Source of the DNA: an uncultured Ferrovum sp.
GTDB taxonomy: Bacteria > Pseudomonadota > Gammaproteobacteria > Burkholderiales > Ferrovaceae
Direction of reading: 5' to 3'
DNA: 42,771 nucleotides
Assembly (NCBI GenBank): GCA_903863375.1
Contig: CAIPBT010000074.1
Span: 1-42,771, forward strand
The notes under the pieces were generated by a model. That model ran no database searches. It saw only the letters and a list, made by a program, of their open reading frames with translations, and had not been told where the DNA came from. This document shows, one piece after another, positions 14,796-18,555 of this stretch. Each line of letters opens with the position of its first letter. Within the stretch, counting starts at the first letter, position 1. The translations under genes and the position numbers were made by a program.

Positions 14796-15584
14796 ATGAC
14801 CACGCTGCGCGGCAAGAGTGCCATCATCACCGGATCCACCAGCGGCATCGGCCTTGGCATCGCCCGCCAGCTGGCCGCCCAGGGGGCGTCGATCCTGCTG
14901 AACGGGTTTGGCGACGCGGCTGCCATCGACGACCTGAAGCGCGAACTGGCCGAGACCTACGCCGTGCCTGTGGAATACCATCCGGCCGACATGACCCAGC
15001 CCGATCAGATTGCCGCGATGGTGCAGGCCGCGATTGGCCATTTTGGTGCGGTCGATATCCTCGTCAACAATGCTGGCATCCAGCACGTGGCCAGTGTGGA
15101 AACCTTTCCCCGCGAACGATGGGATGCCGTGATCGCCATCAACCTGTCGTCGGCCTTCCACGCCACTCAGGCCGTGCTGCCGGGCATGCGCCAACGCAAC
15201 TGGGGGCGCATCATCAACATCGCCTCGGCACACGGTCTGGTGGCTTCTGCCAACAAGTCGGCCTATGTGGCAGCCAAGCATGGCGTGGTCGGGCTGACCA
15301 AGGTGGTGGCGCTGGAAACCGCCACCACCGGCATCACCTGCAATGCCATCTGCCCGGGTTGGGTGCTCACGCCGCTCGTCCAGAAGCAGATCGACGCGAT
15401 CGCCGTGCGCGATGCCATTCCTGAGGCCGCTGCCCGGTCGGCGCTGTTGGGTGAGAAGCAGCCTTCCGGAGAATTTGTCACGCCAGAGCAGCTCGGCGAA
15501 GTAGCCGTATTCCTGTGCAGCGCCGCAGCCAACCAGATCCGCGGCGTGGCCCTGCCGGTGGACGGGGGCTGGACTGCCCAGTAG
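14796..15584 (+). CDS. bdhA: 3-hydroxybutyrate dehydrogenase (short-chain dehydrogenase)
   Basis: NAD-dependent oxidation of 3-hydroxybutyrate to acetoacetate. The 262-residue SDR protein has TGSTSGIGLGIA at the nucleotide site, NNAGIQHV (family-typical for this enzyme), catalytic Ser in NIASAHGLVAS, the YVAAK motif, and CPGWVLTPLVQKQI, characteristic of the hydroxybutyrate dehydrogenase subgroup. A CAGGAG ribosome site lies 9 bp before the ATG at 14796. Together with phaZ it links stored PHB to central metabolism. Specificity is inferred from subgroup motifs. Confidence 0.9.
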   Translation: MTTLRGKSAIITGSTSGIGLGIARQLAAQGASILLNGFGDAAAIDDLKRELAETYAVPVEYHPADMTQPDQIAAMVQAAIGHFGAVDILVNNAGIQHVASVETFPRERWDAVIAINLSSAFHATQAVLPGMRQRNWGRIINIASAHGLVASANKSAYVAAKHGVVGLTKVVALETATTGITCNAICPGWVLTPLVQKQIDAIAVRDAIPEAAARSALLGEKQPSGEFVTPEQLGEVAVFLCSAAANQIRGVALPVDGGWTAQ

Positions 15585-15603
15585 TTTTCCCGCATCCTCT
15601 GTG

Positions 15604-15702
15604 GTGGCGGGCCTCCCCGCATTGCAGCGTAGGAACCTGGTCAGGTCCGGAAGGAAGCAGCCATAACTACTCCCTGCAAGTGCCGGGGTTCAGGCTCGCC
15701 AC
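15604..15702 (+). ncRNA. ffs: Signal recognition particle RNA (4.5S type)
   Basis: The core AACCTGGTCAGGTCCGGAAG followed by GAAGCAGCCA is the signature tetraloop/asymmetric-loop region of bacterial SRP RNA, which binds Ffh. The ends pair (GTGGCGGGCCT with AGGCTCGCCAC), giving a 99-base hairpin like E. coli 4.5S RNA. It lies 19 bp after bdhA and upstream of pagL and dnaX; the SRP RNA gene near dnaX-ybaB-recR is a known arrangement. Confidence 0.96.
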
Positions 15703-15746
15703 TTTCATGAATACGCCGTCAGCCGGTGTCCGGTAGCCTCATCCTT

Positions 15747-16322
15747 ATGTCCGCTTCCTTCTCGCTGCTTCGAACGTTCCGCAGGCTGAGTCTTCTGGTC
15801 TGCCTGTCTAGTCTTTTTGTCTCGCCCCTGGCCGGGGCTGCCGACCCGCGCGACGGAGTGGCTGTCGAGGGCGGGTATGGCTATCACGTTGATATGGCCA
15901 GGTTCACACTGACGCGCGACTGGCAGGCGCCAATCCTGACCGGTGAGCGCTGGGCCATCAGTCCCTATTGGGACCTCGCCCTGGGGCATTGGAACCCGCA
16001 CAATCCCGCCGGTGGAAACCATGCTGTCACCGATGTTGGCGTCACGCCCGTGTTCCGGGTGACCGAGCGGGAACGCTCCGCCATCGCGCCCTATGCGGAA
16101 TTGGCCGTTGGTCTGCACTACATCAGCGACCACCGCATCTACACCGGCCGCGACATGAGCACCCACTTCCAGTTTGGCGACCATGCCGGCGTTGGCGTGA
16201 GCTTCGGTGAGAAGCAGGCTTTCGATCTTGGGTTGCGCCTGCAGCACCTTTCCAATGCCGGCCTGAAAAACCCCAATCCGGGGATCAACTTCTACCAAGT
16301 CCGGGCGGCCTACCATTTCTGA
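15747..16322 (+). CDS. pagL: Lipid A 3-O-deacylase, PagL family
   Basis: Outer-membrane enzyme that removes the 3-position acyl chain from lipid A. The 191-residue protein has a signal peptide (about 1-30, ending SPLAGAADP), then an eight-strand barrel pattern and the catalytic C-terminal motif LRLQHLSNAGLKNPNPGINF containing the His-Ser pair, ending in an aromatic Phe (AYHF) as barrel proteins do. The ATG at 15747 is preferred over a GTG at 15726 because it starts the signal sequence. It sits between the SRP RNA and dnaX, an unusual insertion, and its 3' end overlaps the likely dnaX start. Confidence 0.9.
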   Translation: MSASFSLLRTFRRLSLLVCLSSLFVSPLAGAADPRDGVAVEGGYGYHVDMARFTLTRDWQAPILTGERWAISPYWDLALGHWNPHNPAGGNHAVTDVGVTPVFRVTERERSAIAPYAELAVGLHYISDHRIYTGRDMSTHFQFGDHAGVGVSFGEKQAFDLGLRLQHLSNAGLKNPNPGINFYQVRAAYHF

Positions 16323-18078
16323 GTCCCTGGCCCTTGCCCGCAAGTGGCGTCCGCGCCGCTTTGAGGATCTGCTCGGGCAGGAACATGTGGTGCGCGCGCT
16401 CACCCATGCGCTCGAAACCGGGCGGCTGCACCACGCCTATCTGTTCACCGGCACCCGGGGCGTTGGCAAGACCACCCTGGCGCGCATCCTTGCCAAGTGC
16501 CTGAATTGCGCGGCCGGCGTATCGGCCACTCCCTGTGGCACCTGTGAACCCTGCCAGGCAATTGATGCTGGCCGCTTCAGCGATCTGCTCGAGGTAGACG
16601 CCGCCACCAACACGCGCGTCGAGGAGATGCGCGAACTGCTTGACAATGCGCATTACGCTCCGGTCAGCGGTCGGTTCAAGGTCTACATCATCGACGAAGT
16701 GCACATGCTCTCGAAGCATGCCTTCAACGCCATGCTGAAGACGCTGGAAGAGCCGCCGGCGCACATGAAATTCATTCTGGCCACTACCGATCCGCACAAA
16801 GTGCCGGTGACGGTGCTGTCGCGTTGCCTGCAGTTCGGGCTGAAGCCGATGACGGTGGACCAGCTCGTCTCGCGCCTCGATCTGGTGCTGACCGCCGAGG
16901 CGGTTCCGTTCGAGCCGGCCGCGCTGCGGTTGGTGGCGCGGGCGGCCAACGGCAGCGTGCGCGACAGCCTGAGCGTGCTCGACCAGGCCATTGCGTTTGG
17001 CAGCGGCCGGATTGAGACGGATGCCGTCGCAAGTCTGCTCGGTGTTGGGTCGGATGAGGCTTTGCTCGGTCTGGCGCAGGGTCTGGCCACCCGCGATCGC
17101 CGTCGCGTGCTGGAAACGGTGGCAGGAATGATCAGCGCTGGCCTGTCGGCCGAGGATGTGCTGCAGGACTTTGCCCGTCTGATGCAACAGGTGGCCCTGC
17201 TGCAGCTGGTGCCCGAAGGGCTGGGCATCGCTGGTGAAGCCCCGGATCCGGCGCACTTGCAACTGGCTGCACAGTTCGATGCGCCAACCGTGCAGCTCTG
17301 TTACCAGATTGCCCTGGCCGGGCGACGCGATCTGGTTCATGCACCGGATGAGGCCGCCGGTCTCACCATGAGTTTTGTGCGCATGCTGGCCTTCCTGCCG
17401 GGGGGCAACGATACGCCGGCAGGCTCGCCGCCGACTGCGGCAGGTGGCATGGGGCAGGGGCCGGCGGCGCTTGGCCGCCAGGCTGGTAGCCCGGCGGCGG
17501 GTTCGCGCGGGGCTGCCGCCGGCGCGGCGGCAGTTTCCGCAGCAACTCCCGCAGCAACTCCCGCAGAAACTCCCGCAGCAACTCATGCAGTCGCTCCCGC
17601 AGCAACGCCTGCGGCAGCTACCGCAGCAACTCCCTCGGTATCCCCCTCGGCAACCCCGGCGGCACACCTGCCAGACTGCGGCGCTGACTGGCTCGCCTTG
17701 GTTGACCAGTTGCCAGCCGCCGGAACGGCGCTGGAACTGGCCCGCCACGCGCTTTGGCAGGGTCGCCACGCCAACCGCCTGCACCTGATCGTGCCGCAGC
17801 ATCACAAGCTGCTGCTGACCGCCCAGGAGCGGCTGACGGGCCTGCTCGCTGCCTTGGTCGGTCCGGTGCAACTGGAAATCCGTCTCGAGCAGTTGGCGGC
17901 CGATGCCGTCCCGGCGGTCACGGAGAGCGTGGCCGCCCGGGATGATGCCCTGCGCGCTGCGCGCCTTGCTGCCGCCGAACGCGCCATTCAGGCCGATCCG
18001 GTCGTGCAACGTCTGACCGGCGATTACGGTGCCCGGCTGCTGGCCGGCTCGGTCCGCCCGCGCGACCACGCGGCCTGA
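16315..18078 (+). CDS. dnaX: DNA polymerase III subunit tau/gamma with non-canonical start
   Basis: Clamp-loader ATPase. The conserved N-terminus LARKWRPRRFEDLLGQEH is encoded from about 16333, but the frame has no ATG, GTG or TTG between its stop at 16264 and a GTG at 16387, which would delete that block. An ATT at 16315, aligned with the usual start and overlapping the pagL stop by 8 bp, or CTG at 16327, is the probable initiator. Features: Walker A GTRGVGKTT, four zinc cysteines (NCAAGVSATPCGTCEPC), DEVHML Walker B, sensor 1 region and domain III. A low-complexity linker (about residues 370-455, Ala/Pro/Thr repeats) leads to a tau-like C-terminal domain. Length from ATT is 587. I saw no clear slippery heptamer for a gamma form. 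Confidence 0.93.
   Translation: MSESLALARKWRPRRFEDLLGQEHVVRALTHALETGRLHHAYLFTGTRGVGKTTLARILAKCLNCAAGVSATPCGTCEPCQAIDAGRFSDLLEVDAATNTRVEEMRELLDNAHYAPVSGRFKVYIIDEVHMLSKHAFNAMLKTLEEPPAHMKFILATTDPHKVPVTVLSRCLQFGLKPMTVDQLVSRLDLVLTAEAVPFEPAALRLVARAANGSVRDSLSVLDQAIAFGSGRIETDAVASLLGVGSDEALLGLAQGLATRDRRRVLETVAGMISAGLSAEDVLQDFARLMQQVALLQLVPEGLGIAGEAPDPAHLQLAAQFDAPTVQLCYQIALAGRRDLVHAPDEAAGLTMSFVRMLAFLPGGNDTPAGSPPTAAGGMGQGPAALGRQAGSPAAGSRGAAAGAAAVSAATPAATPAETPAATHAVAPAATPAAATAATPSVSPSATPAAHLPDCGADWLALVDQLPAAGTALELARHALWQGRHANRLHLIVPQHHKLLLTAQERLTGLLAALVGPVQLEIRLEQLAADAVPAVTESVAARDDALRAARLAAAERAIQADPVVQRLTGDYGARLLAGSVRPRDHAA
17539..17634 (+). repeat. 12-bp repeat array coding the AATP linker of DnaX
   Basis: Eight in-frame 12-bp units of the type GCAGCAACTCCC, the first two identical and the rest drifted, encode repeated AATP-like tetrapeptides in the linker between the clamp-loader and tau-specific domains. 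Being a multiple of three, length changes would keep the frame. Confidence 0.85.
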
Positions 18079-18231: not shown

Positions 18232-18555
18232 ATGATGAAGGGCGGACTGGGTGGCCTGATGAAGCAGGCCCAGCAGATGCAGGAAAACATGAAGAAGGCG
18301 CAGGAGGCGCTCGGTGAGGTCGAGGTGCAGGGCGAGACGGGCGGTGGGCTGGTCAAGGTCACCATGACCTGCCACCACCAGGTGCGTCGCGTCGAGATCG
18401 GCGAGGGGGCCATGGAAGACCGCGAGATGCTGGAAGACCTGATCGTGGCTGCCCTGAACGATGCAGTCCGCAAGGTTGCCACGACAACCCAGGACAAGAT
18501 GTCGGGTTTTACCGCCGGCCTGAATTTGCCGCCCGGCTTCAAGCTGCCGTTCTGA
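18232..18555 (+). CDS. ybaB: Nucleoid-associated protein YbaB/EbfC
   Basis: Small dimeric DNA-binding protein, 107 residues. It begins [20 protein letters not shown] and contains the conserved [23 protein letters not shown] and [19 protein letters not shown], ending in the usual hydrophobic GFKLPF. A second in-frame ATG at 18235 is possible. It lies between dnaX (153 bp away) and recR (6 bp), the standard order for this cluster. Confidence 0.96.

Follow-up and report, generated by a model that had tools for sequence, protein, structure and literature searches.

Translation of dnaX, the gene for the DNA polymerase III clamp-loader subunit, probably begins at an AUU codon in this uncultured Ferrovum sp. 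(ATT at position 16315) and throughout its genus, and we put the probability of this reading, which comes from comparison of related genomes, at roughly 0.85. The best reading of the five genus species compared is that the start was gained from the end of the upstream gene pagL when the usual ATG was lost, and re-initiation after pagL is a plausible route by which ribosomes might reach it. AUU starts are already known from other bacterial genes, and dnaX would be a further case.

The window (the whole stretch of 42,771 nucleotides that was analysed) carries pagL between ffs and dnaX (15606-16322; Table 1). After the in-frame TGA that bounds it upstream (16264-16266, forward strand), the dnaX frame reads aaa-acc-cca-atc-cgg-gga-tca-act-tct-acc-aag-tcc-ggg-cgg-cct-acc-ATT(16315)-tct-gag-tcc-CTG(16327)-gcc-ctt-gcc-cgc-aag-tgg. 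The sequence-only reading had claimed that ATG, GTG and TTG are absent from this frame after the stop at 16264 until GTG 16387 (codon 25 counting from ATT) is reached, and reading the frame in this genome found none of the three. The conserved DnaX N-terminus LARKWRPRRFEDLLGQEH is encoded in this interval, and the companion claim that it lies in frame ahead of GTG 16387 was likewise upheld, as the product aligns to E. coli DnaX (PDB 1jr3) from residue 5, which pairs with query residue 6, where the alignment begins. DnaX domain architecture is present in the product read from ATT (NCBIfam, Pfam and E. coli DnaX alignment), with matches to NCBIfam PRK07994.1 at 634.9 bits (cut-off 613) and to TIGR02397 at 414.9 bits (cut-off 250). 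It is the one full-length dnaX match in this genome, which is 97% complete; the other four matches are partial and weak. Residues 410-441 in the tau linker of this DnaX (window 17542-17637) form an imperfect series of ATPA-type repeats. Upstream, pagL extends from an ATG at 15747 to a TGA at 16320-16322, and its product matches Pfam PF09411 at 118.8 bits (cut-off 23; query 15750-16319). The overlap of ATT 16315 with the pagL stop, also claimed earlier, is real: dnaX read from this codon overlaps pagL by 8 nt, and the overlap is the same in 5/5 species if ATT is the start.

Table 1. Coordinates of features at and around the pagL-dnaX junction.
Feature	Position in window	Strand	Basis or remark
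Small SRP RNA (ffs), upstream of pagL	15606..15703	+	Rfam RF00169, 72.7 bits
pagL-like lipid A 3-O-deacylase gene; last codons TAC CAT TTC TGA hold ATT	15747..16322	+	Pfam PF09411
In-frame TGA bounding the dnaX frame upstream	16264..16266	+	Sequence
GGGCGG, Shine-Dalgarno (SD)-like, six bases before ATT	16303..16308	+	-5.8 kcal/mol with the assumed anti-SD
ATT, proposed dnaX start codon	16315..16317	+	Invariant in 5/5 species; 6 codons before L of LARKW
dnaX, DNA polymerase III tau/gamma clamp-loader subunit, 587 aa from ATT	16315..18078	+	NCBIfam, Pfam, E. coli DnaX alignment
CTG, alternative start proposed earlier	16327..16329	+	Codon varies among genus species
GTG, first canonical in-frame codon; a start here would delete LARKWRPRRFEDLLGQEH	16387..16389	+	Sequence
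ybaB/ebfC, downstream of dnaX	18232..18555	+	NCBIfam TIGR00103, 100 bits

The genus sample comprised five species (G000-G004) that are related to one another. ATT is kept at the position of 16315 in all five, within the octamer ATTTCTGA, which is found at the pagL-dnaX junction of every one of them. The surrounding frame differs among the species: G000 and G001 are without a canonical codon upstream in the dnaX frame; G002 has five, all inside pagL, the nearest of them an adjacent ATG and GTG at -26 and -25 relative to the L of LARKW; and G003 and G004 have an in-frame TTG three codons ahead of ATT, directly behind TAAGGG, together with an in-frame TAA five codons ahead of it, so the start in these two species necessarily lies within a few codons of ATT. 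From this bounding TAA to the K of LARKW, ATT is the only one among the ATN and NTG codons that is common to all five species. We caution that genus-wide use of ATT is not forced by these data because of the TTG in G003 and G004 and the far-upstream ATG/GTG of G002. A mixed usage, in which ATT serves in G000-G002 and TTG three codons upstream serves in G003 and G004, would mean that AUU is not the genus-wide start, and the TTG is indeed a canonical codon in frame in both species; we nevertheless consider this unlikely, since the SD-like TAAGGG abuts TTG (spacing 0) but stands nine bases from ATT, and since G003 and G004 still keep ATT and the invariant pagL codons around it. The genus splits by the GC content of the stretches read into a high-GC group (63-67%) and a lower-GC group (48-51%), with genomes of about 3.3-3.4 Mb and 2.2-2.3 Mb, respectively.

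Since CAT-TTC codes for PagL as well, conservation of ATT could by itself be PagL's. Codon choice at the end of pagL was therefore set against that in the rest of the gene. Across the residues shared by all five PagL sequences, Met and Trp excluded, an invariant codon is used at 7/59, and the last three codons, TAC CAT TTC, are all invariant (5/5 species), compared with 4/56 of the other conserved positions. Five of the 22 two-fold codons are invariant, the last three among them; at each of the six further conserved His positions of pagL, the codon varies. If sites are exchangeable, invariance of the last three codons has a P of about 0.001 (0.0065 with two-fold codons only), and these values serve only as guides, given the relatedness of the species and a choice of tests made after seeing the data. 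Usage of CAT (0.39, 0.38, 0.37, 0.62 and 0.62 across the five species) and of TTC (0.70, 0.83, 0.73, 0.20 and 0.32) argues that the invariant choices are not merely the commonest codons. The TAC that precedes CAT is invariant too, for which an ATT start by itself offers no explanation, and conservation of TAC-CAT-TTC could stem from PagL. Substitution patterns on either side of the junction locate the change in constraint: codons 4-24 of the dnaX frame hold 81 synonymous versus 26 non-synonymous pairwise differences among the five species, whereas the 22 codons upstream hold 3 versus 127 in the dnaX frame and 89 versus 51 in the pagL frame. This synonymous excess downstream, absent upstream, argues that selection for DnaX starts at about ATT. 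Taken with the codon choices, these sequence comparisons suggest that ATT is conserved beyond what PagL coding alone requires.

Relatives outside the genus retain a conventional start region. The family set comprised 32 genomes, with a readable dnaX 5′ end in 29 and no N-terminal dnaX match in the remaining family genomes G018, G021 and G030; family loci outside the genus have ATG (19/24) or GTG (5/24) near LARKW. At order level, 100 genomes were searched, of which 97 lie outside the family, and 95 loci were read, G037 and G089 (weak matches only) being left out; a canonical codon occurs no more than 12 codons before LARKW in 95/95 of these, a figure that counts availability and not use, as the codon may be internal. 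A first census of 121 loci, of which 86 were anchored and 35 dropped (the motif missed them or the N-terminus was absent), found a canonical codon within 12 codons in 81/86, the exceptions being L001-L003, L086 and L101; L086 and L101 have an ATG at -19 and -22, respectively. Among the 80 loci listed by a scan for named relatives, which include Nitrosomonas, Tepidiphilus and further Betaproteobacteria, none is close, with best-segment identity up to 59%; the organism is probably a betaproteobacterium.

The spacing of the junction indicates what happened to the ATG. The pagL stop and the L of LARKW are separated by exactly 10 nt in 5/5 genus loci versus 25-41 nt in 23/23 loci outside the genus, so the usual ATG is gone. 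A PagL end is recognised before dnaX in 23/24 non-genus family loci (L123 is the exception) as well as in 5/5 within the genus, which makes the adjacency of dnaX and the lipid A deacylase gene a stable one. The suggestion that insertion of pagL had removed the usual ATG did not survive this comparison and was rejected, since the junction in the genus is shortened and the PagL end is present elsewhere in the family. In the sister genus g8, the junction measures 34 nt in 4/4 loci and ATG stands 16 nt after the pagL stop; the ATT, which precedes the L of LARKW by six codons, occupies the position of this ATG (ISESQAL versus MTASQAL). That equal distance from LARKW, together with conservation in 5/5 species, strongly supports ATT 16315, one of the two starts put forward from the sequence, as the start of dnaX. 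PagL ends in YHF in 5/5 genus loci versus HW[FY] in 23/23 outside; read one base on, TGG-TTC gives GGT and CAT-TTC gives ATT, which argues that the ATT was created by the change in PagL. In the ancestor of the genus, the pagL-dnaX junction would have become shorter by about 24 nt, with loss of the usual ATG; the dnaX frame would then have extended into the end of pagL, and the ATT within the His-Phe codons of PagL would have been taken as the start. We infer this order of events from the junctions compared.

Signals for ribosome binding were calculated against an anti-SD taken from an assumed 16S 3′ end, with a 16S sequence found in 0/5 genus genomes. Pairing before the dnaX ATT amounts to -5.8, -4.4, -5.8, -6.7 and -6.7 kcal/mol in the five species under this assumption, and pairing before the infC ATT to -5.6 to -6.6 kcal/mol. 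Random 20-mers from within ORFs pair as well as the dnaX site in 27% of cases here and in 11-38% over the five species, so the strength of the SD-like run is no evidence for the start. In PagL, the codon for the Arg at the sixth position from the end has the form xGG in 5/5 genus members versus 5/23 outside and is AGG, which makes up 4-7% of Arg codons, in three genus species; this codon choice hints that the purine run before ATT is kept. RNA folds around the junction were not significant (z -1.5 to +0.7), and a sigma-70 promoter scan of 15400-16500 found none. In G003 and G004 (L004 and L005, about 1465-1500), the SD-like AAGGG falls within a hairpin predicted to form with pagL sequence; this hairpin was not significant by shuffling, and pagL translation would be expected to open it.

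Other starts, and other causes for the missing canonical codon, fit the comparison poorly. CTG 16327, the second of the two starts proposed from the sequence, is a near-cognate codon and in frame in this genome, yet codon 5 reads CTG, CTC, CAG, CTA and CTG across the five species and the pairing that precedes it is weak (-2.2 kcal/mol here); with the codon unconserved, initiation at this position is very improbable. Gene finders that accept only ATG, GTG and TTG would instead call GTG 16387, the first canonical in-frame codon here, which has an SD-like run ahead of it (-6.5 kcal/mol) and is followed by a codon, 26, that is GTG in 5/5 species. Against this, the codons that would be removed are rich in synonymous and poor in non-synonymous differences and align to E. 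coli DnaX, a canonical codon precedes them in all 119 loci outside the genus (24 from the family and 95 from the order), and G001 has GTC at codon 25 in place of GTG, its first canonical codon being, as in G002, ATG 19 (numbering from ATT); we regard a start at GTG 16387 as highly improbable.

A PagL-DnaX fusion made by +1 frameshifting at TTC TGA would dispense with a dnaX start altogether. Release factor RF2 employs +1 shifting at UGA, and an RF2-type site has an SD-like element about 3 bases before the slippery codon that precedes UGA. The dnaX gene does lie in the +1 frame of pagL, with TTC TGA at the junction, but inspection of the sequence placed GGGCGG 8 bases before TTC TGA, too far for a site of this type, and showed no SD-like element at about 3 bases. 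Moreover, tRNA-Phe is expected on general grounds to re-pair poorly on UCU, and an exported beta-barrel is hardly a sensible N-terminal partner for DnaX, and we give a fusion hardly any credence. The concern that a sequencing or assembly error had erased a normal start codon, which could be raised for a draft assembly of 226 contigs, found no support on comparison with relatives: the identical junction, with ATTTCTGA, occurs in five separate genomes, which makes such an error very unlikely and in our estimate nearly negligible. A start far upstream inside pagL, at the ATG or GTG of G002, was also considered and set aside, as G003 and G004 have a TAA five codons before ATT, the frame upstream is without selection for DnaX, and pairing before the two codons is weak (-1.8 and -0.1 kcal/mol, respectively).

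The gene for initiation factor IF3, infC, served as a positive control for initiation at AUU. It starts ATT TCT GA[CT] in 5/5 genus species; in 4/5 the frame upstream is free of canonical codons, and in G002 it has a TTG 13 codons ahead of the ATT. The infC start at ATT in all five leads us to expect that these bacteria use AUU as E. coli does. The first eight bases of infC (L135-L139) and of dnaX (16315-16322) are identical in 5/5 species; in dnaX they come from the His, Phe and stop codons of PagL. The sharing of this octamer may be due to chance or to a favoured AUU context.

Comparison with documented rare starts places dnaX among several partial parallels. The infC gene of E. coli starts at AUU, as cited in passages of PMC1780047 and PMC5559785, and that of Xanthomonas does so on the evidence of peptides described in part of PMC5559785. 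The parallel with infC is an AUU start kept across species, with the octamer ATTTCTGA at the beginning of the genus infC also; however, the infC product regulates its own gene, whereas dnaX would be a target and not a regulator, with a start that lies within the end of a preceding gene. The AUU start of E. coli pcnB limits expression (Binns and Masters 2002, as cited in passages of PMC1780047 and PMC13009471), and this gene, although unrelated to dnaX, resembles it, in what those passages describe, as a non-translation gene with an AUU start and low expression. In Streptomyces, sigR has a GTC start that is repressed by IF3 and kept in 32/34 species (PMC5472188, relevant sections); it shares with dnaX a rare start conserved within a genus and a link to IF3, but its codon is GTC (GTT in 2/34), was shown experimentally and has an extensive ribosome-binding site in the account given there, whereas dnaX has ATT and a weak site and is known from sequence only. 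An AUU start for lepA was proposed from sequence in part of PMC1780047 on the ground, as for dnaX, that only AUU restores the full protein, although that proposal concerned two species. For cvfC1 of Staphylococcus aureus, an AUU start was shown by ribosome profiling (PMC13009471, relevant sections) and is similarly conserved in a genus, but the protein there has 61 residues and the extended SD is very strong. No report of a dnaX with an AUU or ATT start was found in the open-licence papers searched, and few genus-conserved AUU starts were found in the same literature.

Because the proposed dnaX start sits inside the end of pagL, and because the overlap of ATT with the pagL stop is real, re-initiation is possible and plausible: a ribosome terminating pagL at the nearby UGA could re-initiate at ATT, perhaps aided by the weak SD-like purine run. 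In E. coli, IF3 counters non-canonical starts, and extra IF3 lowers re-initiation, an effect that the authors attribute to a missing SD (both in sections of PMC2268962). Since IF3 represses AUU starts and extra IF3 cuts SD-less re-initiation in that species, the supply of DnaX here should be modest and IF3-sensitive, a sensitivity that the SD-like run might soften; with an AUU start that overlaps an upstream stop, IF3-sensitive, pagL-linked expression is the natural prediction for dnaX. The clamp loader of the whole genus might be doubly IF3-sensitive, through AUU and through re-initiation from the gene of an outer-membrane lipid A enzyme, with the PagL C-terminus rewritten from Trp to His so as to provide the ATT, but we hold this extended proposal only tentatively and think it rather doubtful.

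A core replication gene is an unexpected site for a genus-conserved AUU start, and software that recognises no starts other than ATG, GTG and TTG would miss the ATT and trim 24 residues from DnaX here. The junction illustrates how an overlapping gene pair may lose a start codon and gain a new one from the frame of its neighbour, and it offers a natural test of IF3 control beyond infC. If the proposed control is true, the supply of DnaX would follow initiation-factor activity and pagL translation, and replication capacity would be tied to the translation state of the cell.
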